The notes beneath the pieces are model-generated. The model did no database searches and was not told the DNA's origin. It worked only from the letters and a program-made list of their open reading frames with translations. Made by a program: the position numbers and the translations under genes. A DNA stretch of 40,819 nucleotides from Muribaculaceae bacterium (GTDB taxonomy: Bacteria; Bacteroidota; Bacteroidia; Bacteroidales; Muribaculaceae): contig JAGCRW010000120.1 in the NCBI GenBank assembly GCA_017964485.1, positions 1 through 40,819 of the forward strand, in the 5' to 3' direction. Numbering within the stretch: the stretch's first letter is position 1; every line of letters begins with the position of its first letter. Positions 15,692-33,001 of the stretch are shown here, one piece after another.

Positions 15692-17695
15692 TTACTTAAC
15701 TATGACTTTCTTGCCGCCCACGATGTAGATACCGCTTGGCAGGCCGGTAGTTGCCTCGCTGCGCTCTATGTTTTGGCGCAGGAGCTGTCCGTTCACGTTA
15801 TAAACATCTACTGGACCGTTGTCGGCAGTATCGATGTTGATGTCTTTAACACCAGTAGTGGTGCCAACCTCTACGTCAACGTCGCCAATCTCATGCACGA
15901 GCTCGGTGGGCTCTACGGCGATTATGTTGTCAATGGAGATGGTCTCGTTGCCAGTGAAGTAGTCATCGGCCTTGACAGTGATGTTAAACAGAGTGCCCTT
16001 ATTGCCATTGATTGTAGTGGCGCTGTGAACAAGGATTCTCCACTTGCCTGGCTCAATCTCATTGAAGCCCATCGCCATGTTGCTTGTGCGACTGGTGGCT
16101 GTAACGTTGTTGATAGTCAGGCCCTGTGGCATAGTGATGTCGAGCTGCAATGCGGCAAACTGTGCGCTGTTGCGCATCTCAATATCCATGGTGTGAGTCT
16201 TGCCGGCCTCGATAACAAAACCATCAGCAAATATGATGTCGTTGCTGTCGAAAGTCTTCTTGTTGCGGCCAGGTACATTCTCGTTGCCGAGCAGAATGTT
16301 ATAAATGCAGGTGATATCAGCAGCAGTGACTACGCCGTCTCCGTTCACGTCAGCTGTGTCCATGAAGTCGGTGGAGTTGCCCAACAAGATGTCATAAACG
16401 CATGTGACGTCTGATGCGGAGACATAACCGTCCTGGTTCACGTCGCCAAAGATGCCATGTGGCTCTTCTTCCGACCAAACGAGGAATCGGCTCCATTGGT
16501 CGGCAGTGCTATAAGCCTCATAGCTGTCTTGTGGTACTTTCAACGGGATTGTGGCTTGCTTAACGCCGAGCCACACTTCTTCGCCAAGCTCAGGCACCTC
16601 AATTGCTTTGCTAGTAAGCTCTTGAAGGTCAATCATGCCCGCCATTGCTTGGTCGCCAATGTAGGCAGTGGTGCTAGGCAAGGTGAGCGTGGTGATTGGG
16701 GTGTTGTAAAGTGCATACTTGCCGATGTGCTGCACTTGTGTGTTTTCGGTAACATTGTTGCTCACGGCAGTACCAGCAAGCAGAAATTCGGCGATGGTAT
16801 CGCATGCCGCATTGGGGACATAAGAGGTGAGTTCGGTGGCATAATAGAAAGCGCCTTTGCCCACATGACTATTGTTGGCGGGAATCGTTGCGCTCACTTG
16901 CTTTGACTGTGCAAATGCCCAATCACCGATGTCGGTAATGTTGGTTGCCTCAAAGTTGAAGTTGCTAATTCTTGAGCCAAGGAAAGCTTCCTTGCCGATG
17001 TGGGTTATATTGTTGCCGTTGCTGAACACGAAATTGTAAATTCGTGAGGTGCCTTTGAAGGCTCGGTCGCCAATGGCAGTCACGTTGGGGCCTATTGTCA
17101 CATTGTTAAGGGAAGTACAGCCCTCAAATGCGCAACTGGGAATCTCCATTGGGCTGTCAGGAGTGATAGTTGCTAAAGAAAGAGTTGTGATATTGGAAAA
17201 CGCACCTTTACCCATAAATTTTACGCTGGCTGGCAGGTAAAGTCGGCTTATTTTTGCGCCCGAGAAAGCGTAGGCTGCAATGGAGTCAATGCCCTCAGGG
17301 AAGGTGAAATTTGTTAACTGGTTGCATCCTGCAAATGCTGCCATGCCAATGGCACGCGTGCCGGCGGGGAGGGTTATTTCTGTGATTCTCTTGCCGAAGA
17401 ATGACATGGGTGGAATGCAGTTTTCTGGGTAATCCACCTCGTTGTTAAATAGCGGTTGTGTGTGGTTGCTGTAACCAACTATAGTAGCGCCCGAGAGGTC
17501 TACTATGGTGAGAGCATCTAGATCGTTGTAGATGAACATGAAGTCGCGTGCGTCCATTTGTCCTGTCACTGTTAGCGACGTGATGCTGGTGTCGTCGATC
17601 AGGTTGGCGAGGTTGCCTGGAGTACACTCCACTTCAAGTGCCCAACTTGCTGTGGCACTAATTAATAACGCTATTGAGAGCAATATTTTTTTCAT
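15692..17695 (-). CDS. BspA-like LRR protein with dockerin and cohesin-like domains (copy C)
   Basis: 667 residues from the ATG at 17695. The in-frame GTG at 17722 would put nine charged residues before the signal peptide, so the ATG is preferred. Signal peptide MKKILLSIALLISATASWA, N-terminal domain, LRR_5 repeats (about 105-385), dockerin pair from residue 417 with complete calcium loops (DVNQDGYVSASD and DVNGDGVVTAAD), a cohesin-like domain (about 488-610), and a T9SS-type tail (VYNVNGQLLRQN, GIYIVGGKKVIVK). The nearly identical tails of B and C indicate recent duplication. Probably secreted and surface-attached by T9SS; the binding target is unknown. Confidence 0.86.
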   Translation of the reverse strand: MKKILLSIALLISATASWALEVECTPGNLANLIDDTSITSLTVTGQMDARDFMFIYNDLDALTIVDLSGATIVGYSNHTQPLFNNEVDYPENCIPPMSFFGKRITEITLPAGTRAIGMAAFAGCNQLTNFTFPEGIDSIAAYAFSGAKISRLYLPASVKFMGKGAFSNITTLSLATITPDSPMEIPSCAFEGCTSLNNVTIGPNVTAIGDRAFKGTSRIYNFVFSNGNNITHIGKEAFLGSRISNFNFEATNITDIGDWAFAQSKQVSATIPANNSHVGKGAFYYATELTSYVPNAACDTIAEFLLAGTAVSNNVTENTQVQHIGKYALYNTPITTLTLPSTTAYIGDQAMAGMIDLQELTSKAIEVPELGEEVWLGVKQATIPLKVPQDSYEAYSTADQWSRFLVWSEEEPHGIFGDVNQDGYVSASDVTCVYDILLGNSTDFMDTADVNGDGVVTAADITCIYNILLGNENVPGRNKKTFDSNDIIFADGFVIEAGKTHTMDIEMRNSAQFAALQLDITMPQGLTINNVTATSRTSNMAMGFNEIEPGKWRILVHSATTINGNKGTLFNITVKADDYFTGNETISIDNIIAVEPTELVHEIGDVDVEVGTTTGVKDINIDTADNGPVDVYNVNGQLLRQNIERSEATTGLPSGIYIVGGKKVIVK

Positions 17696-17914
17696 GTCTT
17701 TTGTGTATTTTTCTTTGTTCACGTTAGGGCATAGTTTGCCTTATAAAAATAAACGTAACGCATGGCCGCTTTATTATATTTAAGGTATATTTTTTCAGTT
17801 TATGGTTGATTGGAGAAGTTATTGGACGCAGATTGTGATAGAGAATGGTTTTCTCCCTTCTCTTGGCATTTATTGTGAGAAAAAATGGTATTGTGCTTTG
17901 TCTGCTAATCAATA

Positions 17915-17945
17915 GTGGTAGTGCTTCAAGGAGAAACACTACCAC
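17915..17945 (-). terminator. Hairpin after the DUF932-like gene
   Basis: GTGGTAGTG (17915-17923) pairs perfectly with CACTACCAC (17937-17945), with a 13-base loop, 9 bases after the stop codon. There is no T-tract, so termination strength is uncertain. The rest of 17696-17914 holds no gene I can support. Confidence 0.5.
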
Positions 17946-17953
17946 AATGTTTC

Positions 17954-19006
17954 TTACCCATTCAGCGTAAGCCTGGGTTTTAGGTCTCGTTCTTTGTCAA
18001 GGAGGTTCATGCTTTGGATTAGGATGGCTGTGCGGCGTGGGTCGCGTTGAGTTAGTTGTGTGCTGTGTGTTGCAAATTCTGTAAGGTTGTTGTAGAGTTT
18101 CCACACGTTGAGGTTGCCTTCGGCGAAGGCCATGTTTTTCGCATTAATACGATGTCCTGCTTCTTTGTATTCCTTCACTAGCTCCTTGTATGGCACATAT
18201 TCCTCGGCTACGACATCCTCCACGCCGTTATTGAGCAGCAGTTCTTTGGCGGTTTTCATCTCTCGCAGTGATGCTGTGCACCTTGCCGCTTCAATCACTT
18301 TCTCTTGCAGCGTTGTCAAGTTGTTGCTCATTAGCAGTTGGTTGTCAGGTAGATAGAGCATATCAGACAGCACATGTGGCGATGCAGTAGAGGTGCGTGC
18401 CATGTTCTCGTTGATGATGCGCGTCATGCCATTGGTGCACACCAGCCTGATGTAGAAATTGTCCAAAGCCATTTGTCCTGGTCGCCATGAGAGTAACATG
18501 CCGTTTGAGATGATTTCGTCGCCTTTAAACAGCATGTGGTACTGCGGGTTGACTGCCGTGAGCATAAGATGGATTTTGTTGTCGCGAAACTCCATCTTAT
18601 AGGGCAGATAGTCGTTGCGGTCCATAAACATATCTGCAAAGTCGAAGAACGTCTGCGGCACAATCATGTGTTCGCCAATGCGTTCCACACTCTGCACCAT
18701 CCCCGTTGTGGGATTGGCTTGCAAAACGACCTTCTTGCCGGGCTTTACCGACCTGCCCAAATAGTTGCGCAGGTTGGTGGCACCTTTGTCGCCATAGTAT
18801 TTCCTTACTTGCCCAACCTGCTGACTGTTAGTACCAATGATTTTGTCGAGCCTTCTTGCTACATCGGGAATCACCTCGACCGTCATTCCCGCTACGTTGT
18901 AGTGTTTGTCGTCAAGTGCCTCAATATCCTCGACCGCTGCTTCGCGGAAGCACATAGGGCGGTTGAGGAAAGCATCACGTTGTTTTTGATATTCAGTTGT
19001 TTCCAT
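17954..19006 (-). CDS. DUF932-like (phage/plasmid-type) protein
   Basis: 350 residues, no signal peptide, cytoplasmic. The segment GDEIISNGMLL...RLVCTNGM (residues 162-194) matches the core of the DUF932 / TIGR03299 family, which is found on phages and plasmids and often near recombination or single-strand-DNA genes. The first half (IPDVARRLDKIIGTN, LRNYLGRSVKPGKK) and the helical C-terminus (about 235-350) are typical in length. Its ATG lies inside the last codons of the RadA-like gene (14-base overlap), so the two are translationally coupled and probably act together. The molecular function is unknown; the family call rests on motif memory only. Confidence 0.68.
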   Translation of the reverse strand: METTEYQKQRDAFLNRPMCFREAAVEDIEALDDKHYNVAGMTVEVIPDVARRLDKIIGTNSQQVGQVRKYYGDKGATNLRNYLGRSVKPGKKVVLQANPTTGMVQSVERIGEHMIVPQTFFDFADMFMDRNDYLPYKMEFRDNKIHLMLTAVNPQYHMLFKGDEIISNGMLLSWRPGQMALDNFYIRLVCTNGMTRIINENMARTSTASPHVLSDMLYLPDNQLLMSNNLTTLQEKVIEAARCTASLREMKTAKELLLNNGVEDVVAEEYVPYKELVKEYKEAGHRINAKNMAFAEGNLNVWKLYNNLTEFATHSTQLTQRDPRRTAILIQSMNLLDKERDLKPRLTLNG

Positions 19007-19850
19007 TTGTAGTGATTTTTGTGTTTATAACATTATCAAATTGATTAGCAAATTCACGAATCTGTGAGGAGATGTTGCTGTGAGTGTGTCGCAGGCGGCG
19101 CTCCTCGTTGAAACGGCGCTCGTTGTAGTTCACGTCGCCTGCGGTGCTGAGGCTGAAGTAGAGCTTTACGCCCACGTCGCCGCGGCGGTGCTTTGAGAAG
19201 ATGATGTAGCGGTCGCTGAACACGTTCTTGGGGTTGTCGAGGCGCAGCTCCATCATTGCCGAGATCATGTGCTTAAGGCGATTGGTTCCCATAAAGTTGC
19301 CACGCTTGGTTACCTGTTGGATGGTGAGAAACGTGGTGTTCTTTTTAGCTTCGTTCATTGCCTTGTTGTGCCTTTTGATGAGCGAGAGCAGGTAGGTCTC
19401 GGCCTGGTGCGAGGTAATGTTCTCTTCCTCCTTGATGATGCCCTGCAGCTCGTTGAACGAGTCAATCGCCACAATATCCCAGCCCTTGTTGAGCTGCTCC
19501 TGCAGCAGTGGCAGATGCCGTTTCTTGCCGTCGATGTCGGGTTCGATGAACATGATGTCGATGTCGCCAAATTTGGGGAATCGATGCACATAGACGGCGA
19601 GGTCTATCTCGTTCATCTCGGCGCTGATAAACAGCACCTTAGCCTCAGGTGCATACTTCATGACATTGGCGAGCAAGTCGAGAATCACGGTGGTCTTGCC
19701 CACTCCTGGGTCGCCAACTACCATGTAGTTCACTCCCTTAGGCAGGCCACGGTAGGAGCACAGTAGCTCGTCAAGCACTGTTCCAGTGGTGTAGTTGGCA
19801 AACAGCGAAGCCCTTAGCTTCATGTCGCGCATTTTCACAATAGTTTCCAT
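18993..19850 (-). CDS. Minimal RadA-like RecA-fold ATPase
   Basis: 285 residues, cytoplasmic. Walker A GDPGVGKTT (46-54), ISAEM (75-79) with a probable catalytic Glu78, Walker B IVAIDS (Asp130), then TIQQVTKRGNFMGTNRLKHM (177-195), which aligns with the VTKEG...G...LEHMVD region of RadA/Sms. KHRRG (220-224) stands where RadA has KNRFG. RadA's N-terminal C4 zinc finger and C-terminal Lon-like domain are both absent, so only the motor core remains. RadA promotes branch migration in recombination; whether this version does is unknown. A KaiC- or DnaB-like role is an alternative. It overlaps the DUF932-like gene and diverges from a WYL regulator. Confidence 0.78.
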   Translation of the reverse strand: METIVKMRDMKLRASLFANYTTGTVLDELLCSYRGLPKGVNYMVVGDPGVGKTTVILDLLANVMKYAPEAKVLFISAEMNEIDLAVYVHRFPKFGDIDIMFIEPDIDGKKRHLPLLQEQLNKGWDIVAIDSFNELQGIIKEEENITSHQAETYLLSLIKRHNKAMNEAKKNTTFLTIQQVTKRGNFMGTNRLKHMISAMMELRLDNPKNVFSDRYIIFSKHRRGDVGVKLYFSLSTAGDVNYNERRFNEERRLRHTHSNISSQIREFANQFDNVINTKITTNGNN

Positions 19851-19897
19851 AATCCTTTTTGTTGCTTGGTTTTTTCTTGATGCAAAGAAAACAGTGG

Positions 19898-19920
19898 ACT
19901 ATGCCAAATGACGGCATAGT
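19898..19920. promoter_or_regulatory. Inverted repeat in the RadA-like leader (possible operator)
   Basis: ACTATGCC (19898-19905) and GGCATAGT (19913-19920) form a perfect 8-bp inverted repeat with a 7-base spacer. It lies between the predicted RadA-like promoter and its ATG, in the WYL-divergent intergenic region. It could be a regulator site or an RNA hairpin. Confidence 0.4.
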
Positions 19921-19986
19921 TGTATGTTCTTTTGCATTATTTGATTATTCCTTTTCTTAAATCATTAATAAATCACTCCTTTTCTA

Positions 19987-20019
19987 CAAATTTACAAAAA
20001 AAAAATTGACCTGAGCAAT
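19987..20019 (-). promoter_or_regulatory. Promoter of the RadA-like/DUF932-like operon with A10/T10 spacer tract
   Basis: TAAATTTG on the minus strand (19987-19994) and a partial -33 ATTG (20016-20019) are 21 bases apart. Ten identical bases (19996-20005) fill half the spacer. The predicted leader is about 130 bases. Confidence 0.55.
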
Positions 20020-20102
20020 AGTGTTGGATTTTTTTTCTCAAAAAAAGACGATGTTACAGTCTATTTTTTTAGTAGCCATGTCGATGGTCAGAAATTTCTC
20101 AC

Positions 20103-20110
20103 TATATTTG
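20103..20110 (+). promoter_or_regulatory. -7 box (TATATTTG) for the WYL regulator
   Basis: TATATTTG sits 38 bases before the ATG at 20149. The -33 match at 20-base spacing is poor. Confidence 0.55.
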
Positions 20111-20148
20111 CAATCACATTAATAAAATATTGCATCGTTTAAATAATC

Positions 20149-21102
20149 ATGTCACGGAATTTATTTGCTCGGTATTTGTGGGAGATTAACACGTTGTATG
20201 ATCGTGGGCACGTCACGCTCAAGGAATTGAATCAGCTTTATCGCGATAGTTTCCTCTATGATGAGGCCGATGAGGAGGCGCGGCTTGAGCGGCGAACCAC
20301 TGGAAACGATGATGACGGGGCCATACCTCGCCGCACCTGGGACAACCACCGTCGTGAGATTGAGACCATCTTTGACGTCAACATCGAGTGCCGCAAGAGC
20401 GACAACACCTATTATATCGCTGATGACGAGGGCTACATGGCGAGCGAGATGACGCACATGATTTGCAACCACTTTGCAGTGAAGAATATGCTTGTAGAGG
20501 CCGATCATCTTAAGTCGCGTGTGATGTATGAGAACATCCCATCGGGCTATAAACATCTCACTACTGTCATTCAGGCAATGCGAGAGGGAAAGGCTCTGAA
20601 CATTGTTTATCAAAGTTTCGCGCGCGATGAGAAGACCGAGTTCGTACTGCATCCCTATTGCTTGAAAGTGTTTCGCCAGCGCTGGTATGTTGTTGGTTGG
20701 CATGAGCCGAGCGACGATGTGCGCATCTACGGTCTCGACCGAGTGGATAGTATGACGATTACCACGAAGAAGTTCACAATGCCCGCAAACTTCGACCCGC
20801 AAGAGTACTTTGAGGACTCGTTTGGAGTGTTCCGCAACGACGGTGTGGCGGTAGAGACGGTGCGATTGCGTGCCAATGACGAGGAGCGCGCCTACCTTCG
20901 TTCGCTACCGTTGCACCACTCGCAGCAAGAGGTTGAGATAGGGGAGGACTACTCGGTGTTTGAGTGGCGGCTCCGCCCGTCGTTCGACTTCAAGCAGGCA
21001 ATCCTCGCTATGGGTGCAAATGTAGAAGTCCTTGAGCCGCAATGGCTACGAGAGGATTTGCGCCAAAAACTCACCGAGATGCTGAATCTTTACACCCCTT
21101 AA
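20149..21102 (+). CDS. WYL-domain transcriptional regulator
   Basis: 317 residues. An N-terminal DNA-binding region (about 1-95; a winged-helix variant with RRTWDNHRREIETIFDV) is followed by a WYL domain: EGKALNIVYQSF, HPYCLKVFRQRWYVVGW (RWYVVG 178-183) and IYGLDRVDSM, then the WCX C-terminal extension (about 230-315). WYL proteins sense ligands, often single-stranded nucleic acid or nucleotides, and control DNA-damage and phage-defence genes in several phyla. Here it is divergent from the RadA-like/DUF932-like operon, 298 bp apart, which makes that operon its most likely target (inference). Confidence 0.9.
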   Translation: MSRNLFARYLWEINTLYDRGHVTLKELNQLYRDSFLYDEADEEARLERRTTGNDDDGAIPRRTWDNHRREIETIFDVNIECRKSDNTYYIADDEGYMASEMTHMICNHFAVKNMLVEADHLKSRVMYENIPSGYKHLTTVIQAMREGKALNIVYQSFARDEKTEFVLHPYCLKVFRQRWYVVGWHEPSDDVRIYGLDRVDSMTITTKKFTMPANFDPQEYFEDSFGVFRNDGVAVETVRLRANDEERAYLRSLPLHHSQQEVEIGEDYSVFEWRLRPSFDFKQAILAMGANVEVLEPQWLREDLRQKLTEMLNLYTP

Positions 21103-21140
21103 GGTTTTACACCGCCTAAAACCCTCTGAAATTTTTTTTT
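21103..21140 (+). terminator. Probable terminator after the WYL gene
   Basis: GGTTTT/AAAACC (21103-21108 with 21118-21123) forms a short stem followed, 8 bases later, by nine T residues (21132-21140). Confidence 0.45.
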
Positions 21141-21221
21141 CTACATTTTTATATGGCTGTGCTGTGTTCTGGCACAGTTGTTGCTGTATTTTGCATCAAG
21201 AAACTTAAAAACATTGGAATT

Positions 21222-21518
21222 ATGCAGACAACTTTATTAGGAAAATTGAAAAATGCGCTTGCCGAGGGCGAGCTTAACAGTGATGTGAGGGGTGATGTGC
21301 TGGTTAAAATTCTGAATATCATAACCGACAACGACAGCTGCAAACTTGGGCTTGGAACTGATCAGTTGCTTGACGCGGCTGAGTATGCGTTAAATCTGTT
21401 TCTTGTGGGATGGAAGAGCTTTGTTACTAAAGCTAACAATGAGGCTGAATTACACAGGAAACTCTATGTCTTGTGCCTCAACGCGTGCCAAATAGAGAGA
21501 CGCAGGACGCGATTTTAG
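21222..21518 (+). CDS. Small protein of unknown function (98 aa)
   Basis: 98 residues from the ATG at 21222 (MQTTLLGKLKNALAEG). The longer frame from 21153 starts with a hydrophobic stretch that overlaps likely non-coding sequence. It appears wholly helical and soluble, with acidic and basic stretches and a basic end (ERRRTRF). I do not recognise a family. It is followed 40 bp later by a 47-residue membrane peptide in the same direction, and lies 119 bp after the WYL gene. It may belong with the neighbouring RadA-like module or be an independent small operon; nothing in the sequence decides this. Confidence 0.6.
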   Translation: MQTTLLGKLKNALAEGELNSDVRGDVLVKILNIITDNDSCKLGLGTDQLLDAAEYALNLFLVGWKSFVTKANNEAELHRKLYVLCLNACQIERRRTRF

Positions 21519-21558
21519 GAGGACTAGGAGAGCGGTAACTTTTTAACAAGCAAAGACT

Positions 21559-21702
21559 ATGTTCTCGATTTTGTTTGGATTCATATTGGGTTTTGTGCTG
21601 ACTTTTGTGGTGGGTGGAGTGGTGGTGTTGGCTATCGCTGGCATAGGCGCTCTGCTGATAAAATTGCTTGAGTGGTTCTTTTTTGACTACCTGAATATAT
21701 GA
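21559..21702 (+). CDS. 47-residue membrane peptide
   Basis: ATG at 21559, TGA at 21700-21702. The translation starts MFSILFGFILGFVLTFVVGG and continues as one long hydrophobic segment (about residues 2-35) with Gly-rich packing, ending LEWFFFDYLNI. A purine-rich GGAGGACTAGGAG stretch lies about 25 bases upstream. It is probably a small inner-membrane protein; a toxin or a regulator of a membrane partner are possible roles, but neither is shown. A hairpin with a T-tract follows 41 bases after the stop. Confidence 0.55.
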   Translation: MFSILFGFILGFVLTFVVGGVVVLAIAGIGALLIKLLEWFFFDYLNI

Positions 21703-21743
21703 GCGCCGCCTAATCTTTAGCTACAAGAAAAATGGAAAAAATA

Positions 21744-21822: not shown

Positions 21823-22584
21823 ATGAAAATAATTGTTTTGCCCGATGTTCATGGGCGCAGGTTTTGGGAAATTGCCCGTGATCGCATTGATGAGTGCGAC
21901 AAGGTTGTATTTATTGGTGACTATTTCGACCCCTACAGTTTTGAGGGAATCAGCGAGCTTGATGCCATTAAGAATTTTCGTGAGATAGAGCTCTTTGCCA
22001 AAGAGTATCCCGAGAAGGTTGTGATGCTGCTTGGCAATCACGACTTGCCGTATTTCAGTGAAGAGTATCGTGCGTTGTCGACCTACCATTGCCGTTGGTC
22101 GCCCGAGTGGCACAGCGTGATTGCCTATATGCTGGAGGCTAATCGTGAGCTGTTTAAGGTTGCGCATGTGGAGGACGACGTGCTGTTCACTCACGCCGGT
22201 TGTTCTTCGTTGTGGCTCAGGAGCATAGATTCTAAGGCGGCTTCTTTGCCCGACCTTGTGACAGAACTCAACATGCTGCCTTCTACCGAGGAAGGCTTGC
22301 GCAAGCTCTTTATGGTGTCGTATCACCGCGGCGGATGTGATGATGCAGGCTCGTGCGTATGGGCCGATGTCAATGAGTTGGTCAACGCCCCAATGGATTT
22401 ACACGTTGGCGGCAAGGCGGTGAAGCAAGTATTCGGCCACACGCTGCAAGCAGTACATGACAATTATGGCAACCTAGTGAGTGGCCCGCCCATCAGCACT
22501 CCAGCGATGAAGATGCTCGACACCCGTTGCGCTTATCTCCTCGACACTGCCACCTTTGAGCATACCGCTTTGCTTAATGTATAA
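21823..22584 (+). CDS. Calcineurin-like metallophosphoesterase
   Basis: 253 residues, cytoplasmic. The metal-binding signatures appear in order: PDVHG (Asp8, His10), GDYFD (32-36), GNHD (71-74), THAG (about residue 125) and GHTLQ near residue 205. This is the PPP-type phosphoesterase layout (Ser/Thr phosphatase, ApaH, RNA-end phosphatases). The substrate cannot be read from sequence. It has its own strong promoter, so it is transcriptionally separate from the preceding small operon. Confidence 0.9.
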   Translation: MKIIVLPDVHGRRFWEIARDRIDECDKVVFIGDYFDPYSFEGISELDAIKNFREIELFAKEYPEKVVMLLGNHDLPYFSEEYRALSTYHCRWSPEWHSVIAYMLEANRELFKVAHVEDDVLFTHAGCSSLWLRSIDSKAASLPDLVTELNMLPSTEEGLRKLFMVSYHRGGCDDAGSCVWADVNELVNAPMDLHVGGKAVKQVFGHTLQAVHDNYGNLVSGPPISTPAMKMLDTRCAYLLDTATFEHTALLNV

Positions 22585-22735: not shown

Positions 22736-22918
22736 ATGAAAAAGTCAAAAATAACCAAGAGCAACGCGATGGACAAGATCATCAAGATGATATCGCGCAA
22801 CGAGCAGATGGAACGCAACGGCGGCGGCCAATGGGTCGCCACGCATCGTGTGCATAAGTCAAAGAAGCAATACTCCCGTCGCCGCTTTAAGCAGGAGACG
22901 AAGCGAGAGCTTGATTAA
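22736..22918 (+). CDS. Small basic protein (60 aa)
   Basis: 60 residues, very Lys/Arg-rich, starting MKKSKITKSNAMDKIIKMIS, with RHRVHKS-like basic stretches and ending KQETKRELD. No Cys or membrane segment. The composition suggests a nucleic-acid- or ribosome-associated peptide. I do not recognise the family. The stop codon overlaps the start of an AATGCAC-type repeat. Coding status is supported by codon-like composition and start position only. Confidence 0.5.
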   Translation: MKKSKITKSNAMDKIIKMISRNEQMERNGGGQWVATHRVHKSKKQYSRRRFKQETKRELD

Positions 22919-24656: not shown

Positions 24657-27600
24657 TTACTGCATTTGATACTCTTCTGTGACAACTAGTGTTCCAATTG
24701 GTGTGCTGCCGTAGATGGTTCCGTTGTTATATTTTCCAAAGAAGGTGTAAATGCCTGGTGGCAATCGGTTGTTGCCAATTTTGAGGTTCCAGTCAAACGG
24801 GAAGTTGCTGATAGTCTTGTGCCATTTCATATTGCCCAGGTGGTCAAACAACTTTATTTCAACATCTGGCGTGAAGCTCAGGTCGGACTTGAAGTTGAAA
24901 GTGGCTTTATCAATAGCTGGTTCTTGGTCGACGGTGAGCTTGGCTTGTTGGGTGCTGCTCACGGCGAAGTTTAAGTAGCTTGTGGTCATGTTGCCCGCAA
25001 TGTCATAAACAGAATATTGCAGTGTGTGGTCGCCAGGCTCAAGTTGCAAGGGCATTTCTACGGTGAGGGTTTTGCCTTCGTTGCTCATTGCGGCGTAGGC
25101 ACTCACGTTAGGCAGGTTGGTCTTGCCACCGTCAATTTTGAGGTCCATACTGTTGCCAATCGCCATGCTCTGTGTGTTGAAAGCGACATCATCGCTGGCA
25201 ATGATGTGAAGAGTTGATGAAGGATCTACGGTGTTGCACAGTTCAAAGTACTGCTCGTCGTTGAAGTAGATAGCGTCGATAGTGGGCGCTATGCTGTCGT
25301 GCACGGTAAGGGCATTGGTTGCCGCGTAGCTGCTTATGACGAGTTTGTCAAAGCTGCCGTTCACCATGTCGTTGCTGTTGTCGCGGTGCGCATATACCGA
25401 CACGAGTCCTTGGGCTCCTGGGTTCTGAGTGTATCGTGGAATGACGGCTTTTCCTGTGAAGACGCCGTTGACCACTCTTCCGTTTACCTGTGTGAGCATC
25501 TTTCTAGGGTAGTAGATGTCGCGGCTGTTATAGGTGGTCTCCTTCTTCATGTAGTCGTAGATTGAGAGCGTGGCATCGCCGTTGAAAGAGCTGTCCAACG
25601 CACCGTTTTCTTTCAAGACAGTGGCCACTACTGTGACTTGACGCAGCGCTCCAGAAGTGATGTTGCTGGTGCCCACATTATAGCCATTGATTTTAGTGAT
25701 TTTGAACAAAGGCTTAGGATAATAAACTTTCATTGCAGGGTCTCCGAGCAGTGAAAACATCATCTTGTTGTAGGCTGTTACAGTTCCGAACGACTGCTTG
25801 CAGAGCATATAGGCCTCTCCTAAAGTAGTCATTTGCCCTGTGTTGTTATAGCTGAATAGGTTGGTCACAAAAGCTTTATTGAGGGCGTCGTTGCCTGTAG
25901 CGTAGGCCGAGCGTGTTGCCGCCAGCATTGCGATGGCGCCACCGTCAGGTCTATGGAACATGATCTCCATTAGTCCTCGCTGACTGCCGTCATATCGTGC
26001 CACATCGCAGCAGGCAGTAGTGACAATGGGCAGATGTGGATAACTGGCGTGTTTCGACTCATTAGTGGTCCACAGGTTCACTTGCTTGGTAAGTGCGCTG
26101 GGATTGGCGTGGCCCACATAGGTCATAAAGAATTGTCCGCTTTCTAGCAGCGAGTTCATGCTCTTGCGCCCTTCGAGCGAGAATCCGGTGGCGGGGTCTT
26201 TGGGGAACTGATTAACATAAACCTTATTCTTCATGAACCCAGCACTGAGTTCGTCACAGATAAGGTTAGCCACACCTTCGGCTTGACTCTCGTGCATGTA
26301 AGTTTCGGTATTAGGCGGGGTGCCAGGGACATCATATACATAGTCGGCGATAAAGAGAGCGTTGTTTCGCCATGGGCCATAGTCTGGGTTATTGACGTAG
26401 TTGAGAAGCTTATCAACATCGGTCTCGGCTTCCTCAACCGACGAGCTTGGAATGCGTCCCACACCCAGGCGGAGCAAATCTCCGGCGGGATTTACTCCCG
26501 AATTGTCGTCAAGAAATCCGAAAAAGTCGTCGCTCACGAAACTGTTGTTCTCATCGTTGCTGACAGGCGACTCGTAAGTGATGATGTTGCAAGGGTTCTT
26601 TACAAGCAGCTGGCGGTTATCGTAGCTGCCGCCTCCAAACATAAGCAGATATTTGAACTTGTTTTTGCCGTCGCGATCATAGAACATCTTGTTCATGAGC
26701 CTTATGGCCATGGGGTCGGGGGTGCCGCTTGAAAACTCGTTGAAGATTTTCTGCTGGTCGAGCACGTGCACCACCATTCTGTCGTTGTCGCGGTGCATCT
26801 GTGCCACACGCTCGGCTTGTTGCATCAGTGGCTCGCAGGTGACGATTATCATGTCGGGGAGAGGCATGCCGTGAATGTTTTGGTTAGCGACCTGCTCAAA
26901 GCCTGCGATTTTCTTAAGTTCCTTGGTAGGGTCAAAGGCGATGAATTGCGTGTAGTCTATCGTGTAGAGTGGAGTGAAGCCTTTTATTCCGTTTTTCTCG
27001 CTAATACTGTAGTTTTTAGGTTCTAGAGGGTTGTCGATGTTCCATAATTGTGTGCTGGTAGTTGCTCCAACAATGGAGATGATGTCAGCCGACGACACAT
27101 TATTGAACCCCATGCGCATCTGGTTGTTTTGAGTCCCGCGTAAGTTGTTGCTGTGGTAGTAGGTAATCAGGCAGTAGTCAAGTCTTGCCCAGTTAAAGGG
27201 CTGGGATGAAGTGACGCCAATTGTTATCTCTCCGTTTTCGGGTATGTTGGAGCCGTTCTCGCCTCGCACTGTGACCAAAGGTTGAGCAGTGTTGTAAAAG
27301 ACATATTCAGAAGAGGCTGTGTAAATCTTTGACTCTTGAGTGCTTAGAGCGATGTCGTTTTCGTTGACTTTGAGCGTGATGTAGGAGAAAGAGTTCTTGT
27401 TTTTGGCTGCAGCACGTGGGTTCACGATTATTGCCGAGTCTCCACATAGTTTTGGCATCGAATATGATATGGTGACAGGCTGGTCGGTAATTTTTTCGCC
27501 AAGGAATTCCTTGCCCGACTGTGACGCCGAAATCACCTCTTGCTCGTGGTGGAAGTAGTCGAGGCTTGTGTTCCTTACATTTGTGCCCGTGATGCCGTAG

Positions 27601-28064
27601 GTTATTGTGGTGGGTTGCAGGTGGGTTTCGTTATTCTCACAGAGGAAGTAATAGCCCATTGTCGAGCAGTTGTTGAATTTGCGCGTGAAATGGGGGTTGT
27701 CGACGGGGGTGTCAATAGTGTACTCTATCGCACCGCAGGCATAGAAGCACAGCTTGTCGCCATATATTTTGCAAGGCACTTGCTTGAGGTCGTCGATGGC
27801 ATTGCCATTAAGTATCTCGCTGATGGGGTGACCTCCAGTACCATAAAGATTCACATTTTGTGGGTTTCTAAATCCCATCTGATGCAATTCGTTGAAGGAT
27901 ATTTCATACATTCCATCCTCAGGGATAGCGATTTTTACCCATTTTCCATTTGATAACTTTGATTGAGAGGCATAGATATTGGCATTAAAAGCCTTGACTG
28001 TGCCAACCCCAGCAACAGCTAAGATGATGACACAAAAGACATTAAATAAGAGCCGCTTATTCAT
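24657..28064 (-). CDS. C25-family (PorU-like) secreted protein, copy 1
   Basis: 1135 residues with a signal peptide (about 1-25). The N-terminal region carries the PorU-type start LSNGKWVKIAIPEDGMYEIS. The C25 gingipain-like domain spans roughly 410-760, with FNEFSSGTPD and the catalytic pair His652 (YVGHANPS) and Cys685 or Cys686 (TTACCDVARYD). The H-C distance of 33 equals that of P. gingivalis PorU (His657/Cys690, from memory). The C-terminus is a FlgD-like Ig fold (PGIYTFFGKYNN) near a T9SS-type end. PorU is the T9SS sortase; a dedicated paralogue could attach a subset of cargo. Gly after the His is replaced by Ala (GHAN), unlike copies 2 and 3. Confidence 0.85.
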   Translation of the reverse strand: MNKRLLFNVFCVIILAVAGVGTVKAFNANIYASQSKLSNGKWVKIAIPEDGMYEISFNELHQMGFRNPQNVNLYGTGGHPISEILNGNAIDDLKQVPCKIYGDKLCFYACGAIEYTIDTPVDNPHFTRKFNNCSTMGYYFLCENNETHLQPTTITYGITGTNVRNTSLDYFHHEQEVISASQSGKEFLGEKITDQPVTISYSMPKLCGDSAIIVNPRAAAKNKNSFSYITLKVNENDIALSTQESKIYTASSEYVFYNTAQPLVTVRGENGSNIPENGEITIGVTSSQPFNWARLDYCLITYYHSNNLRGTQNNQMRMGFNNVSSADIISIVGATTSTQLWNIDNPLEPKNYSISEKNGIKGFTPLYTIDYTQFIAFDPTKELKKIAGFEQVANQNIHGMPLPDMIIVTCEPLMQQAERVAQMHRDNDRMVVHVLDQQKIFNEFSSGTPDPMAIRLMNKMFYDRDGKNKFKYLLMFGGGSYDNRQLLVKNPCNIITYESPVSNDENNSFVSDDFFGFLDDNSGVNPAGDLLRLGVGRIPSSSVEEAETDVDKLLNYVNNPDYGPWRNNALFIADYVYDVPGTPPNTETYMHESQAEGVANLICDELSAGFMKNKVYVNQFPKDPATGFSLEGRKSMNSLLESGQFFMTYVGHANPSALTKQVNLWTTNESKHASYPHLPIVTTACCDVARYDGSQRGLMEIMFHRPDGGAIAMLAATRSAYATGNDALNKAFVTNLFSYNNTGQMTTLGEAYMLCKQSFGTVTAYNKMMFSLLGDPAMKVYYPKPLFKITKINGYNVGTSNITSGALRQVTVVATVLKENGALDSSFNGDATLSIYDYMKKETTYNSRDIYYPRKMLTQVNGRVVNGVFTGKAVIPRYTQNPGAQGLVSVYAHRDNSNDMVNGSFDKLVISSYAATNALTVHDSIAPTIDAIYFNDEQYFELCNTVDPSSTLHIIASDDVAFNTQSMAIGNSMDLKIDGGKTNLPNVSAYAAMSNEGKTLTVEMPLQLEPGDHTLQYSVYDIAGNMTTSYLNFAVSSTQQAKLTVDQEPAIDKATFNFKSDLSFTPDVEIKLFDHLGNMKWHKTISNFPFDWNLKIGNNRLPPGIYTFFGKYNNGTIYGSTPIGTLVVTEEYQMQ

Positions 28065-28184
28065 GATGATATGATAAAAGTGTGTTTTTGTTCTTTATTT
28101 TACATTATATTATATAACGAAAAATAATGTGGTTTATTGTCAAGAATATAGGTGACTATCCTTTTGATGGCTTCAATGAATTAT

Positions 28185-28216
28185 AAAAAAGCATTACACG
28201 CTCGAGCGTGTAATGC
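28185..28216 (-). terminator. Terminator after C25 copy 2 built on a perfect 26-bp palindrome
   Basis: GCATTACACGCTC and its exact complement form a palindrome at 28191-28216. On the minus strand six T residues follow (28185-28190). It sits 26 bases after the copy 2 stop. The remainder of the 177-base gap before copy 1 is AT-rich with no certain promoter. Confidence 0.85.
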
Positions 28217-28241
28217 TAAATATCTCAGTATGTGAGTGTGA

Positions 28242-31200
28242 TTAGTCGTTGTTGCTGCGATAGGGGTCAATGACTATTATGTGCCCTATCTCAGTGCCGC
28301 CATAGGTAGTATTGTTCTTGTAAGTTCCGTAGAACTTATACACACCTGCTGCCACACGGTTACCTTCATTATCGGTTAGGTTCCAAGTGTAGGGGAAGTT
28401 GGCGGTTGTGGTGCTCCACACTAAGTTGCCCACGTTGTCAAGTACCTTGATGGTGACATCGGGAGTGGGTGAGAGTGCGCTGCTCACATTGAAGGTTGCC
28501 TCGGTCATTGCAGGCTCTTCATCAACGGTAAGCTCGAGTTGCGACTCGTAGCCCACGATGAAGGAGATTGTCTCAGTTGCTTTGTTGCCGGCAGCGTCAT
28601 ATACAGTGTATTGCAGCGTGTGACGTCCTTCCTGCAAGTCCATGGGGAACTCAATGGATAACGCTTTGCCCTCATCTTCCAGTGTAGAGTAGTTTCTAAT
28701 GTAAGGATAGGTTGTCTTACCACCGTCGAGCATCAGGCTCATGGTGTTGCCCATTGCCATCGACTGGTTGTTGAATGAGTGGTCGTCGCTAGCGCGTATG
28801 TAAAGTGTGCTTCCTGAAGGAATCAAAGCGCCGTTACTGAAGCTCTGCTCGTCGTTGAAGTAGATGGCATCAATTACAGGTGGCAAATCATCGTGCACTG
28901 TAAGCGCGTTGTCATCATTGTAGGGGTTGAGTTTCAGCATGTCGAATGTTCCGTTCACCATCTCTTCGCTGTCGTCACGGTGTGCATACACTTTCACCAT
29001 GCCATTGTTGCTCGTTGAGAGGATGTAGCGTGGGATTACCGCTTTAGCGGTGAACACACCGTTCACAACACGTCCGTTGACGCGTGTGAGCAGGTCTTGT
29101 GGGAAGTAGATGTCGCGTGTTACGTCCACACGCTCCACGCGTACGGTAATTGAGGTCTCCTTCTTCTTGTAGTCGTAGATAGAGAGTGTGGCGTCGCCAT
29201 TGAAGTCGGTGTTGACTGTTGTGCCGTCGGGGTTATATACTACGGCTTCTACTGTGACCTCTTGCATTGCTCCAGAGGAGATTGCCGTTGTGCCCACGTT
29301 GGTACCGTTGATTTTTGTGATCTTGAAGTATGGTTTGGGGTAGTTTACCCTCATGGCAGGGTCGCCGAGGAGCAAAAACGACATCTTGTTGTAGTTTGCT
29401 TTGCTGACGCCAAACGACTGCTTGCTGAGCATATAGGCTTCACCTATAGTGGGCATATAACCCTTGGTGTTGAAGCAGAACATGCCTCTTACAAATGCCT
29501 GGTTGAGGGCATCGTTGTCGGTGGCATATACCGCACGTGCTGATGTGACGATAGCAATGGCGCCACCATCAGGTTTGTGGAACATAATCTCCACTAGTCC
29601 TCGCTGGTTACAGTCGTAGCGTGCCACATCGCAGCATGCAGTGGTGAGGATGGGCTTGTGGGGATATACTACTGTGTTAGATTGGTCGGTGCCCCACAAC
29701 TGCACATCTTTAGTGAGGAAGTTAGGATTGCCGTGACCCACATAGGTCATGAAGTACTGTCCCTCGGTGAGTTTTGAAATGAGTTCCTTGCGGGCATCAA
29801 AAGCGTATCCCGAGACTGGGTCGTTAGGGAATTGGCTGATATACACCTTGTTGTTCATCAAACCTGTGCTGAGTTCATCAACGATGATATTGTTGATTCC
29901 CTCAGTCTGGAATGCATGCAGTCCGTTGTCGTAGTCATCGGCAGTGAGCACCACATCGTTTCTCCAGTATCCATAGTCGGGATTGTTGACATACTCTAGC
30001 AGTTTGTCAACATCGCTTTCGGCTTCTTGAATTGTGGCGCTAGGAATGCGTCCCACGCCGAGCCTGAGATATTCCTTTGCGAGTTCCGTACCCGAGTTGT
30101 CATCAAGGATACCAAAGAAGTCGTCACTCACATAGCTGTACTCCTCATCGTTGCTGTTGGTAGCTTCGTAGGTGAGAATTGTGCACTCTCGCTTTGAGTG
30201 CAGCTGTCGGTTGTCGTAGTTACCGGCGCCAAACATGAGCAGGTACTTGTATTTGTTCTTGTTGCGATCATAGAACATCTTGCTCATGAGGCGAATACCC
30301 ATAGCATCTGGGGTACCGCTTGAGAACTCGTTGAAAATTTTCTGCTGGTCAAGCACATGCACCACCATGTTGTCGTTGTCGCGGTGCATCTGTGCTACGC
30401 GTTCGGCTTGTGGCATCAGCTCCTCGCAGGTCACGATTATCATGTGGGGGTCGGGAAGACCATGGATATTCTGGTTGTCAATATTAGTAAATCCTGATAT
30501 TGACTTGAGGTCTTCAGCTGGATTAAAGGCTATGTACTGGCCCGAATTTACGGCCATGTTAGGCGCAAATCCCATCACTCCATTGTCATCGTTGATCATC
30601 AAGCAGTTGGTGGGGCTTTGTGGGTTGTCGATGTTCCAGAGCTGATAGTCGCTATTGCTTTCGCCAAAAGTGATGCGGTCTTGTTTTGTCAGTTTCTCGA
30701 AGCACATGCGCAACTGGTTGTCGGCAACGCCAATGAGGGAGTTGCGGTGGTAGAAAGTGATAGTCACATAGTCGAGCCAAGCACTTTTAACAGCGTCAGC
30801 CGAGCCGCCTCCAATTTTCACGTTGATGACACCGTCGGTAAACATTGGCATCGTGTCAACGGGATTGAAAATCACATAGGGAGAAGCTGAGTTGTAGTAC
30901 ACGAAGCTATTAGCTGGTGCATAAATCTTAGCCTGGGTGTTTGTGAAGTTAAGGCTATTGCCGTTGATTTTTCCATAGATATAGGAAGACGCAGAAACCT
31001 TGGCAGCAGCGGTAACATTTACCACAACTGTTGTGTCGGTGTACAGAGTGGGGATAGAGTAGGGTACATTAATCTCGCCGTTTGCCATAGCCTCTCCCAA
31101 CATCTCTTTTCCTGACTCTCCTGGAGAAATGAGATCGTTCTCGTGATGCCAGTAGTCAAGGCTGTAAGTCCTTGTCACAGGTTCAGCAACATTAGCACTG

Positions 31201-31667
31201 GTGGCATCTGTTGGTTCCAGGCGGTTGGATCCGTCGTTGTCGGTAATAAGATAGTATCCTTTGTCAGAATAACTGTTGATCACTCTTGTGTAGTGAGGAG
31301 TGCCAGTGGGAGTGGAGAGTGTGAATTTCACTGATCCACATCCGTAGAAGCAGATTTTATCGCCATAGATTTTGATAGGAATCTGCTGCAGGTCATCGAT
31401 TTGCGAGCCGTCGAGCACTTCGCTGATGGGATATCCTCCCAGTCCGTAGATTCTCACTTCTTCGGGGTTGTTAAAGCCCATCTGCGCTAGTTCATCGAAT
31501 GTGAGCTGATAAATGCCGTTCTCGGGAATCTCAATTTTCACCCATTTGCCACTTGCCAGTTTTGAGGTTCTGGTGTAGTTGGACGATGAGAATGCCTGTA
31601 TGCTCATCGTTGTGGCCGCAACGATAGCCATCAGGCCCATGATTTTAAATAAAAACTTCTTATGCAT
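28242..31667 (-). CDS. C25-family (PorU-like) secreted protein, copy 2
   Basis: 1141 residues, signal peptide about 1-25 (MSIQA/FSS). Domain order as in copy 1, with which it shares long blocks (SGKWVKIEIPENGIYQLTF; MHRDND.MVVHVLDQQKIFNEF; ACCDVARYD). Catalytic pair His645 (GHGNPN) and Cys678 (or Cys679), 33 apart. The C-terminus is a FlgD-like fold ending in a polar tail (DPYRSNND) rather than the basic KLAITN-type end. It lies 50 bp after the FAH-fold gene with no promoter seen, so it may be read through from rex. It is closer to copy 1 than to copy 3, so 1 and 2 look like a tandem duplication. Confidence 0.85.
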   Translation of the reverse strand: MHKKFLFKIMGLMAIVAATTMSIQAFSSSNYTRTSKLASGKWVKIEIPENGIYQLTFDELAQMGFNNPEEVRIYGLGGYPISEVLDGSQIDDLQQIPIKIYGDKICFYGCGSVKFTLSTPTGTPHYTRVINSYSDKGYYLITDNDGSNRLEPTDATSANVAEPVTRTYSLDYWHHENDLISPGESGKEMLGEAMANGEINVPYSIPTLYTDTTVVVNVTAAAKVSASSYIYGKINGNSLNFTNTQAKIYAPANSFVYYNSASPYVIFNPVDTMPMFTDGVINVKIGGGSADAVKSAWLDYVTITFYHRNSLIGVADNQLRMCFEKLTKQDRITFGESNSDYQLWNIDNPQSPTNCLMINDDNGVMGFAPNMAVNSGQYIAFNPAEDLKSISGFTNIDNQNIHGLPDPHMIIVTCEELMPQAERVAQMHRDNDNMVVHVLDQQKIFNEFSSGTPDAMGIRLMSKMFYDRNKNKYKYLLMFGAGNYDNRQLHSKRECTILTYEATNSNDEEYSYVSDDFFGILDDNSGTELAKEYLRLGVGRIPSATIQEAESDVDKLLEYVNNPDYGYWRNDVVLTADDYDNGLHAFQTEGINNIIVDELSTGLMNNKVYISQFPNDPVSGYAFDARKELISKLTEGQYFMTYVGHGNPNFLTKDVQLWGTDQSNTVVYPHKPILTTACCDVARYDCNQRGLVEIMFHKPDGGAIAIVTSARAVYATDNDALNQAFVRGMFCFNTKGYMPTIGEAYMLSKQSFGVSKANYNKMSFLLLGDPAMRVNYPKPYFKITKINGTNVGTTAISSGAMQEVTVEAVVYNPDGTTVNTDFNGDATLSIYDYKKKETSITVRVERVDVTRDIYFPQDLLTRVNGRVVNGVFTAKAVIPRYILSTSNNGMVKVYAHRDDSEEMVNGTFDMLKLNPYNDDNALTVHDDLPPVIDAIYFNDEQSFSNGALIPSGSTLYIRASDDHSFNNQSMAMGNTMSLMLDGGKTTYPYIRNYSTLEDEGKALSIEFPMDLQEGRHTLQYTVYDAAGNKATETISFIVGYESQLELTVDEEPAMTEATFNVSSALSPTPDVTIKVLDNVGNLVWSTTTANFPYTWNLTDNEGNRVAAGVYKFYGTYKNNTTYGGTEIGHIIVIDPYRSNND

Positions 31668-31717
31668 AGGTAGTTTAATTATATTGTTTTCTAGCTATAT
31701 ATATTGTCTTCTAATTG

Positions 31718-32287
31718 TTATTTCACTCTAATTGTGAGTTTCTGGTTCCCGTTGATTGCGGCGTGAAGTGTGTCGCCCATTGTCAGCTCCAAGTTGCTGC
31801 CGCCAAGCTCCACGACTATCATGTCGCCCATCTTCAGTGTGAAGTACACGCTCAGCTGTGCTATCAGCTGCCTGAAGTCGATGCCCGCTACGTCAAGGCT
31901 GCCTTGGGCCACCTGCTCGCTGTTGCGCTCAATTGTCACCACGCTGTTATTGATGTCTTCGGGAGAGTCAACGTTGGTGAAATCGCCAAGCAGCAGCGCT
32001 CCGTCAAAGCTATGAGCTAGTGCCGAAGTCTCGCTTTTGGGCTGCGCCATCTCCAAGCCGCGTGCTGTCACCTTTATGGCTGGTGCCACTGCGAGGCAGT
32101 AGCGGTGGGCAAATCGTGGGGCGATGTGCTTCCCCAGCCGGTCAATGTGCAGTGCTATGGCTGGTGTTCCAGTAAAACTCTGTGCAAAGTGAGGCACGAA
32201 AAACGGTTTGTTAGTCTTGATAATTGCCGAGTCGGCCATCAAGTAAACCTGATTGGGCAGCTCTCTGCCTATGCCTATTATCTTCAC
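31718..32287 (-). CDS. Degenerate fumarylacetoacetate-hydrolase-fold protein
   Basis: 189 residues with a GTG start whose GTGA overlaps the rex stop by 4 bases. The fold is recognisable from MKIIGIGREL, DSAIIKTNKPFFVPHF, LGKHIAPRFAHRY and AHSFDGALLLGDF, which match the FAH/FAHD1-YcgM family (MKIIciGRNY; PFfiPdFs; ekFAHRYYD; KgFDGsapiG). The three metal ligands are lost: the HYEVEL segment reads TPAIAL (both Glu to Ala43/Ala45), and GIDFTARD reads AIKVTARG (Asp to Lys72 and Asp to Gly77). It cannot be a normal magnesium-dependent FAH hydrolase. Tight coupling to rex suggests a regulatory or structural role (inference). Confidence 0.8.
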   Translation of the reverse strand: MKIIGIGRELPNQVYLMADSAIIKTNKPFFVPHFAQSFTGTPAIALHIDRLGKHIAPRFAHRYCLAVAPAIKVTARGLEMAQPKSETSALAHSFDGALLLGDFTNVDSPEDINNSVVTIERNSEQVAQGSLDVAGIDFRQLIAQLSVYFTLKMGDMIVVELGGSNLELTMGDTLHAAINGNQKLTIRVK

Positions 32288-32955
32288 TTTGTGATATTTT
32301 TGTTGTTGACGTTCGCTTCCATGCTGTTATACATTAGAGCGAGGTCTGAATAAATTGATGTGTTTTGCAGGACCACATTCCGTGGTACCTTGATGCGGAA
32401 CGGTGTGAAGTTCCATATCGCCTTTATGTTGCTGTCAACAAGCATATCGGCAACTTCTTGGGCGCTCTCAAATGGCACTGCCACAATGGCTATTGCCACT
32501 CCGCTGCTTCGTTGTCGCATCGGCAGCTCGGCAAGGTCATAGATGGGAATGTCACCCACCGTTGACCCAATTATTGCCTTGTCGATGTCGAAGGCCGCCA
32601 CGATGTTAAGTCCATACTGCATCAGTCCCAGATCACGCATCAGTGCGCTGCCCAATGAGCCAGCGCCTATCAAAAAAGCATTATGGCGGTGCTTGAAGCC
32701 CAGAAACTCTGTCAGCGCCTTGGTGAGCGGGTGCACCTCATATCCGATGCGTGTCTTGCCCTTTATGTTGAGGAACGACAGGTCTTTAGCGATTTGCGAT
32801 GCATCCACATTGAGGCGCTTGGCAATCTGCGTGGAGGACACGTGCTCTTCGTGCTTGAGGTCAAGCATTTTCAGGTAAGCCAGGTACCACGGCAGCCTCC
32901 TGAGGGTGGGCTCGGGAAGCATCGCTCGGTTGATATGTCGCTCACTGTCGCTCAT
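32284..32955 (-). CDS. rex: Redox-sensing transcriptional repressor Rex
   Basis: 223 residues. An N-terminal winged helix (about 14-75; PEPTLRRLPWYLAYL and SSTQIAKRLNVDASQIAKDLS) is followed by a Rossmann domain with GAGSLG (97-102), AAFDIDKAIIGS, and the C-terminal domain-swap helix (about 196-215). It represses fermentation and respiration genes when NADH is low relative to NAD+. No clear Rex operator (TTGTGA-N-TCACAA type) was found in this window, so its local targets are unknown. It starts 46 bp after C25 copy 3 and overlaps the FAH-fold gene by 4 bases. Confidence 0.95.
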   Translation of the reverse strand: MSDSERHINRAMLPEPTLRRLPWYLAYLKMLDLKHEEHVSSTQIAKRLNVDASQIAKDLSFLNIKGKTRIGYEVHPLTKALTEFLGFKHRHNAFLIGAGSLGSALMRDLGLMQYGLNIVAAFDIDKAIIGSTVGDIPIYDLAELPMRQRSSGVAIAIVAVPFESAQEVADMLVDSNIKAIWNFTPFRIKVPRNVVLQNTSIYSDLALMYNSMEANVNNKNITK

Positions 32956-33001
32956 TTGTATTCTCTAGTAATCTATAGTTAAATCACTTATAACTTAACG
33001 C

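Follow-up and report, generated by a model that had tools for sequence, protein, structure and literature searches.

Introduction

The three adjacent genes at positions 17954 to 21102 of contig JAGCRW010000120.1, from a Muribaculaceae bacterium, raise the question of whether an ATPase of the RecA fold, a protein resembling the DUF932 family and a regulator with a WYL domain belong to one functional unit and, if so, what such a unit might do. By the window we mean the whole stretch of 40,819 nucleotides of this contig that was analysed, and not the three-gene feature. On the reverse strand of the window the gene for the ATPase (18993..19850; 285 amino acids, aa) is followed by that for the DUF932-superfamily partner (17954..19006; 350 aa), and, as the sequence and the coordinates of the open reading frames (ORFs) agree, the stop of the former and the ATG of the latter overlap by 14 bases (18993-19006). 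The WYL-WCX regulator (20149..21102; 317 aa) lies on the forward strand, divergent from the pair, across an intergenic region of 298 bp (19851..20148), which is presumably a shared control region and from which the regulator might control the pair.

An initial annotation had described this layout accurately, together with the motifs GDPGVGKTT, ISAEM, AIDS, VTKRGNFMG and KHRRG, all of which are present in the ATPase translation, and had interpreted the three genes as a possible module, in which a recombination/repair pair derived from a phage is kept on the chromosome as a stress or defence response. We find that the ATPase and the DUF932-like gene are a conserved two-gene unit, whereas the three-gene module with the WYL gene is not, and we regard the pair as a candidate phage-related machine, undescribed in the literature searched.

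The ATPase and its partner as a two-gene unit

A contig scan with the ATPase alone collected 72 genome loci, nearly all labelled as Bacteroidota, the exceptions including metagenome-assembled genomes (MAGs) that bear the labels Oscillospiraceae (L050) and Opitutales (L093). In 67 of the 72 the ATPase is followed immediately, on its own strand, by a DUF932-like match, or in 66 by one that is a separate ORF, because the larger count includes L100, in which a single ORF joins the start of the ATPase to the end of the partner. Once near-copies are removed the partner adjoins the ATPase in 35 of 36 genome loci, and overlaps of 14, 8 or 4 bases between the two genes are common. Three of the misses (L097, L099 and L101) are partial ATPase matches, L097 and L099 being situated at contig ends. 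On the Opitutales-labelled contig the ATPase profile has two members, one on each strand (L093 4272-5150 and 10501-11346).

The same association is seen in viruses. An alignment scan of a viral collection returned 82 relatives of the ATPase, of which 80 were kept; a single-protein scan of viral contigs gave no match. A DUF932-superfamily gene lies near the ATPase in 63 of these 80 loci (55 with the long DUF932-like partner and 8 with a standard DUF932, two of which were scanned and matched Pfam at 1.9e-35 and 1.2e-32), and in 28 of 36 with near-copies removed. Ten of the 17 viral misses have less than 1 kb of sequence on one side. Two gene orders, ATPase first or partner first, occur among the phage groups.

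Occurrence across genomes points in the same direction. Among 393 genomes of the order the ATPase is found in five and the partner in four, all four among those five, and among 61 relatives the partner occurs in five, each of which also has the ATPase. The pairwise distances of ATPase and partner show the highest correlation of any two genes compared (r 0.83, n=45), followed by partner and PLD protein (0.69, n=33), partner and WYL (0.64, n=29), ATPase and PLD (0.61, n=30) and ATPase and WYL (0.53, n=27). None of 2000 permutations reached any observed value, and since every correlation beats the permutations, all of them must in part reflect shared descent. The expectation that the two genes would be conserved together is thus borne out by the genome loci, the viral contigs and the order-wide scan alike.

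When the window is compared with L030, its closest relative, all three genes show purifying selection, which together with the adjacency in 67 of 72 loci speaks for more than chance; the ratio of nonsynonymous to synonymous substitution rates (dN/dS) is 0.09 for the ATPase, 0.11 for the DUF932-like gene and 0.05 for the WYL gene. For the DUF932-like gene this one pair of sequences gave no sign of diversifying selection. The dS of the ATPase gene in the same comparison, 0.32, is far below the 0.83 and 0.76 of its neighbours, a difference that could stem from local recombination.

An ATPase of the RadA lineage

Single-sequence scans do not settle the identity of the ATPase, because the scores of KaiC, RadA and DnaB-like families all compete. 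In Pfam the top family is KaiC (PF06745; 36 bits against a cut-off of 26.6), ahead of AAA_25 (27.1 against 27); the KaiC match is limited to residues 26-90, the part that holds the P-loop, and its best stretch covers profile positions 8-69 of 231, so that it falls short of a full KaiC domain. The best NCBIfam match is RadA (TIGR00416), with a score of 33.1 bits that is far under its cut-off of 403 bits, and the best match in PHROGs is a DnaB-like helicase (5.6e-8). A profile built from the alignment of 72 ATPase relatives (A3; 272 positions) discriminates better in a search of the PDB. It matches RadA at 5.8e-12 (5lkm) and 6.5e-12, covering positions 19-234 of 272, and ranks these above single-copy RecA (from 1.6e-8), KaiC (3.6e-4) and DnaB (0.002). 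Three entries stand above RadA; they are fusions of 4-6 RecA copies, and they outrank it because the copies add up, at about 32 bits per copy against 47.6 for RadA.

The residue alignment with RadA spans the VTKxG, GxxxLxHM and KxRxG elements, and five residues, K52 of Walker A, E78, H194, K220 and R222, are invariant across the 72 A3 sequences. The passages of the RadA structure paper that deal with these residues assign the KNRFG lysine the role of piston, the KNRFG arginine that of finger and E124 that of catalytic glutamate (PMC11612176). By alignment K220 and R222 correspond to the piston and finger and E78 to the catalytic glutamate. The core is RecA-like, has both Walker A and the catalytic glutamate, and aligns to RadA 5lkm; in place of KNRFG the family has KHRRG, with K, R and mostly G retained and N and F not.

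None of 162 family ORFs of 230-420 aa has the two CxxC motifs of a C4 zinc finger, and there is no room for a Lon-like domain, since the protein ends 60 residues past KHRRG, at 285 aa compared with 452-473 aa in solved RadA proteins. In E. coli RadA the zinc-finger change C28Y left the ATPase activity intact and abolished DNA binding, according to the relevant portion of PMC4786428. Compared with bacterial RadA/Sms (TIGR00416; PDB 5lkm, 8rxc), the ATPase shares the RecA fold, the order of RadA motifs, the lysine piston, arginine finger and catalytic glutamate, and the second histidine region, but differs in lacking the N-terminal C4 zinc finger and the C-terminal Lon-like domain, in having KHRRG for KNRFG and Q for the histidine before VTK, and in its obligate-looking DUF932 partner. 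Ten Bacteroidales RadA rows, recognised by a KNRFG or AGP-LEHxVD pattern, form a separate group in the tree (support 100). With the phage Sak4/UvsX-type recombinases (phrog_124, phrog_97) the ATPase has in common weak profile matches (2.2e-6, 1.7e-5), membership of the RecA superfamily and carriage by phages, and it is distinguished from them by the RadA-type K-x-R-x-G motif and by the DUF932 partner. Judged from sequence, the ATPase is of the RadA lineage, with the catalytic residues retained and both the zinc finger and the Lon-like domain missing, much as the initial annotation had proposed.

The DUF932-like partner

DUF932 proteins are widespread in phages and plasmids and, to our knowledge, have no known function. 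Against PF06067 the protein of the window reaches 16.6 bits, below the gathering cut-off of 23, while its relative L080 clears the cut-off with 29.2 bits. Across the partner family Pfam returns DUF932 more often than any other entry (for 20 of 69 members at E<=0.01, the best at 8.3e-7). A profile made from eight phage DUF932 proteins finds the phage partners at E values from 1e-29 upwards and a few chromosomal partners weakly (1.2e-4 to 9e-3). Aligned by hhalign, the family and standard DUF932 match over short stretches only, at 94% over 50 columns and 66% over 19 columns, the former being confined to the stretch around RLVCxNG, a signature that is invariant both in the partner family (R187, C190, N192 and G193 in 69 sequences) and in standard DUF932. 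A PDB profile search with the family gave 12 matches, none meaningful, the best at E 0.26. The partner is linked to DUF932 by a chain of similarity with no single strong match, and the label DUF932-like, which the initial annotation had used, is right, though the likeness is remote. With standard DUF932 (PF06067; phrog_1362) it shares the RLVCxNG and WxxxN signatures; it differs in being longer (about 350-385 aa), in its remoteness and in being paired with an ATPase. The standard form is found in 23 of 50,697 records of an isolate-phage collection.

The C-terminal tail of the ATPase

A possible trace of contact between the two proteins is found at the end of the ATPase. Of the 118 complete ATPases that are paired with the long DUF932-like protein, 108 end in a tail of the form F[DEN]x[LMIV]F, against none of eight with a standard DUF932 and neither of the two chromosomal ATPases without a partner (L063 and L066); with near-copies removed the counts are 51 of 59 for the long partner and 0 of 4 for standard DUF932. 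Viral ATPases without a recognised partner carry it in 9 of 14 cases, 7 of these 9 being near a contig end. The tail is a lead for a docking motif and not a proof of one, because its distribution tracks the tree and because in L063 and L066 the replacement of the tail and the loss of the partner amount to one event. A reading of the tail as a beta-clamp motif was dropped as it does not fit.

The WYL gene as a looser companion

The window regulator has WYL (2.8e-18) and WCX (1.8e-12) domains above the Pfam cut-offs and no Pfam match in its N-terminal part. WYL genes occur in 46 of the 72 genome loci, and in 36 of the 46 the gene is on the ATPase strand. About one would be expected in 72 stretches of the same mean length, as estimated from 34 matches in 13 genomes, although this contrast is rough, the loci having been searched with a more sensitive profile and seven of the 13 background genomes having been chosen for possessing the ATPase. 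The closest relative of the window WYL protein, 81% identical, is encoded on another contig (G015:C3), where the genes downstream encode a protein of 409 aa that has no Pfam match, one of 354 aa and a DUF2201 VWA-like protein; a relative of the small ORF at 21153-21518 of the window is present there too, and the ATPase and its partner are absent from the 18 kb around this WYL twin. Elsewhere in the same genome, G015, there is an ATPase pair as well, accompanied by a different WYL gene. The idea of three genes in one fixed module is not sustained by these observations; that the WYL gene might have a different partner is true in part, given the twin, and WYL genes are still found at 46 of the 72 loci. 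The WYL gene is an island companion, looser than a fixed partner. Among BrxR homologues, 48% lie with known defence systems, as stated in the part of PMC9122601 that treats them.

Exchange at the site and occurrence of the pair

In the window the pair is located between an LRR gene and rplU-rpmA. Collinearity with G001 (locus L246), a genome of the same genus, ends at 17807 and restarts at 21559; between these points only 42 bp, at 21157-21198, match. In place of 17808-21556 G001 carries a different pair of genes (505 and 308 aa), and it keeps the metallophosphoesterase gene that follows. In three further genomes (G003, G015 and G431) no pair is found at the window site. As G001 holds other cargo at the same site and the pair is not there in the other three, the block at 17808..21556, which extends from the LRR gene to the metallophosphoesterase gene and comprises the pair, the WYL gene and the small ORF at 21153-21518, is exchangeable cargo. 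A direct repeat of 149 bp (83%) flanks the replacing cargo (L246 4611-4759 and 7495-7643), one copy corresponding to window 21557-21704, and may be part of the exchange. The metallophosphoesterase gene (21823-22584) was rejected as a member of the unit, for G001 has it there without the pair. Consistent with the initial annotation, Pfam scans of 17 window proteins named neither an integrase nor a transposase, other window ORFs being outside these scans.

The distribution of the pair is patchy. Of 37 genomes in the genus four have the ATPase, and one of the four, G001, is counted by a fragment at a contig end. Among isolate phages 5 of 50,697 records match it at E<=1e-3, and only the 484-kb LR756508.1, which also carries the partner 33 kb from the ATPase, does so over more than 80% of the query. 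Matches in plasmids (13 of 72,556 records) were rejected as family members, none covering over 80%, identities being 24-28% and seven being annotated as RadA.

In the tree the 37 chromosomal ATPase rows form one clade with support 100, and the phage rows are more diverse. The best tree places the chromosomal rows among the viral ones; forcing the viral rows together costs 1.4 log units (approximately unbiased test, p-AU 0.47; 0.69 with fewer outgroup rows), so that a single viral clade is not rejected and a nesting of the chromosomal genes within the phage ones is not established. Of the phage connection first proposed, the existence of relatives on large viral contigs stands, and the stronger term "phage-derived" is not shown to apply.

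Neighbouring genes

As the initial annotation had led one to expect, defence-type genes are frequent beside the pair. GmrSD-type pairs occur in 20, DEDDh proteins in 19 and IetA-like AAA proteins in 17 of the 72 loci, a second GmrSD_N type (c81) in five, and at least one of these in 38, each neighbour cluster being named from one representative; for GmrSD about 0.5 loci would be expected from 18 matches in 14 genomes. A PLD gene directly follows the partner in 28 of the 60 loci with at least 400 bp behind it, its representative matching PLDc_2 at 6.7e-13 and DrmC at 2.9e-8; the window has no PLD match. This small protein is a likeness to the PLD proteins of DISARM and Dpd (DrmC, DpdK), just as the WYL regulator and GmrSD neighbours are a likeness to WYL-regulated BREX islands, but no core gene of DISARM or BREX was identified at the loci. 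In PADLOC the DUF932-like protein has no model at E<=1, and the ATPase matches generic P-loop models only, the best being mad8 (1.4e-6, 26 bits) and others MkoA and TRIP13.

Proteins that by eye resemble FtsZ are found in 7 of the 72 loci (cluster c30; L022 6957-7973, L058 6663-7646), one of which had no match in PADLOC, and proteins resembling RtcB RNA ligase, again by eye, in another cluster at 7 of 72 (c37; L070 4033-5292). Near the viral copies of the pair there is neither a WYL nor a PLD gene. Ten proteins scanned from the viral flanks comprised a tail fibre, a Clp-like protease, a glycosyltransferase, a methyltransferase and six without match, and an unannotated family of about 152 aa lies near the pair in 31 of 80 viral loci (cluster c0; L163 7235-7693).

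A putative DNA-remodelling machine and its alternatives

We propose that the pair is one two-part DNA-remodelling machine common to large phages and to defence-type islands of Bacteroidales, a reading to which we assign a probability of about one half. The ATPase would be a ring motor of the RadA lineage cut down to its ATPase core, and the DUF932 protein, in complex with it, would provide in trans what RadA has in cis, namely loading, assembly or the choice of target, in place of the zinc finger (DNA binding) and the Lon-like domain (ring scaffold). Motor and partner together would move along DNA and remodel intermediates that are branched or single-stranded. In large phages the machine might serve DNA metabolism of the phage itself or competition. 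Bacteroidales have it at variable sites of the chromosome as exchangeable cargo, often accompanied by a WYL regulator and a PLD nuclease, and there it would most likely act on invading DNA. Defence is the leading reading of this candidate function. A more specific version, in which the pair is a system directed against phages or serving competition between them, DUF932 loading the RadA-type ring on invader intermediates, the F-D-x-L-F tail docking the partner, an optional PLD protein cutting the exposed DNA and phages using the same core genes for the opposite side, is tentative and in our judgement doubtful.

Several observations weigh against this picture. The chromosomes of L063 and L066 lack a DUF932-like gene in the same context, a real absence, and seven viral loci with at least 7 kb on both sides have no recognised DUF932. 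The pairing is also one-sided: in four of four DUF932 isolate phages inspected, out of the 23, the stretch retrieved held nothing that matched the ATPase at E<=1, and standard DUF932 in isolate phages seems to work without such an ATPase. The tail is degenerate in the window itself (FDNVI) and in L030 (FENVI), and its correlation with the partner may reflect shared ancestry. In single-sequence scans the E values of the KaiC (6.3e-9) and DnaB-like (5.6e-8) profiles are comparable to that of RadA (2.4e-8). What lies near the pair in the viral stretches examined is a set of genes for a Clp-like protease, a tail fibre and a methyltransferase, not for replication or recombination, and so does not favour a core recombination role. 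Finally, RtcB, FtsZ-like and DUF6557 genes are also among the island neighbours, which may mean only that islands collect anything mobile.

How, then, do other explanations compare? The pair could be a captured phage recombination and repair pair, induced through the WYL regulator as part of the DNA-damage response of the host, and the RadA lineage of the ATPase, the phage relatives and the WYL genes nearby in 46 of 72 loci would all fit; we nevertheless consider this unlikely, since so patchy an occurrence (4 of 37 genomes in the genus, 5 of 393 in the order) is unlike a general repair function, genomes with weak matches in the genus scan have an ordinary RadA too, and the WYL gene has other partners, as at G015:C3. 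If instead the pair were a passenger serving the mobile island or integrated element itself, by exchange or stabilisation, the replacement of cargo at the same site, the 149-bp repeat around the G001 cargo and the highly variable neighbours would be expected, but the lack of any named integrase among the window proteins scanned and the presence of the pair as an accessory in phages without these islands make this distinctly unlikely. Least probable is that the ATPase is no DNA motor and works in signalling or regulation, as KaiC does, with DUF932 as the partner that delivers the output. Pfam does put KaiC at the top and above cut-off, yet the match is restricted to the P-loop part, the A3 profile prefers RadA and RecA to KaiC and the RadA-type K/R pair is invariant. 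The proposed remodelling machine accommodates these observations best as far as sequence comparison reaches.

Other features of the window

The LRR gene at 15692-17722 is of the BspA type and includes a dockerin domain. A basic ORF of 60 aa without Pfam match (22736-22918) has similar DNA (77-85%) in G001, G010 and G011, twice in the stretch from G011. At 24657-36457 lie adjoining large C25-peptidase genes, two of which were scanned (E 1.1e-81 and 1.9e-77); the ORF that separates these two is about as large and lay outside the scan.

Implications

No description of the ATPase/DUF932 pair was found in the literature searched, from which subscription papers mostly fell outside, and there DUF932 never appears in a title or abstract; the name occurs in a gene list forming part of PMC3861447, and a preprint on huge phages (PMC12363816) makes no mention of RadA, RecA or DUF932. 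A fixed partner with a recognisable motor would be the first concrete handle on DUF932, which might load a ring of the RecA family or direct it to its target. The relevant section of the RadA structure paper leaves ring assembly and loading open (PMC11612176), and a RadA core that has neither its own scaffold nor its own zinc finger bears on both. If the pair does protect against phages, it would represent a type of motor absent from the PADLOC release searched.

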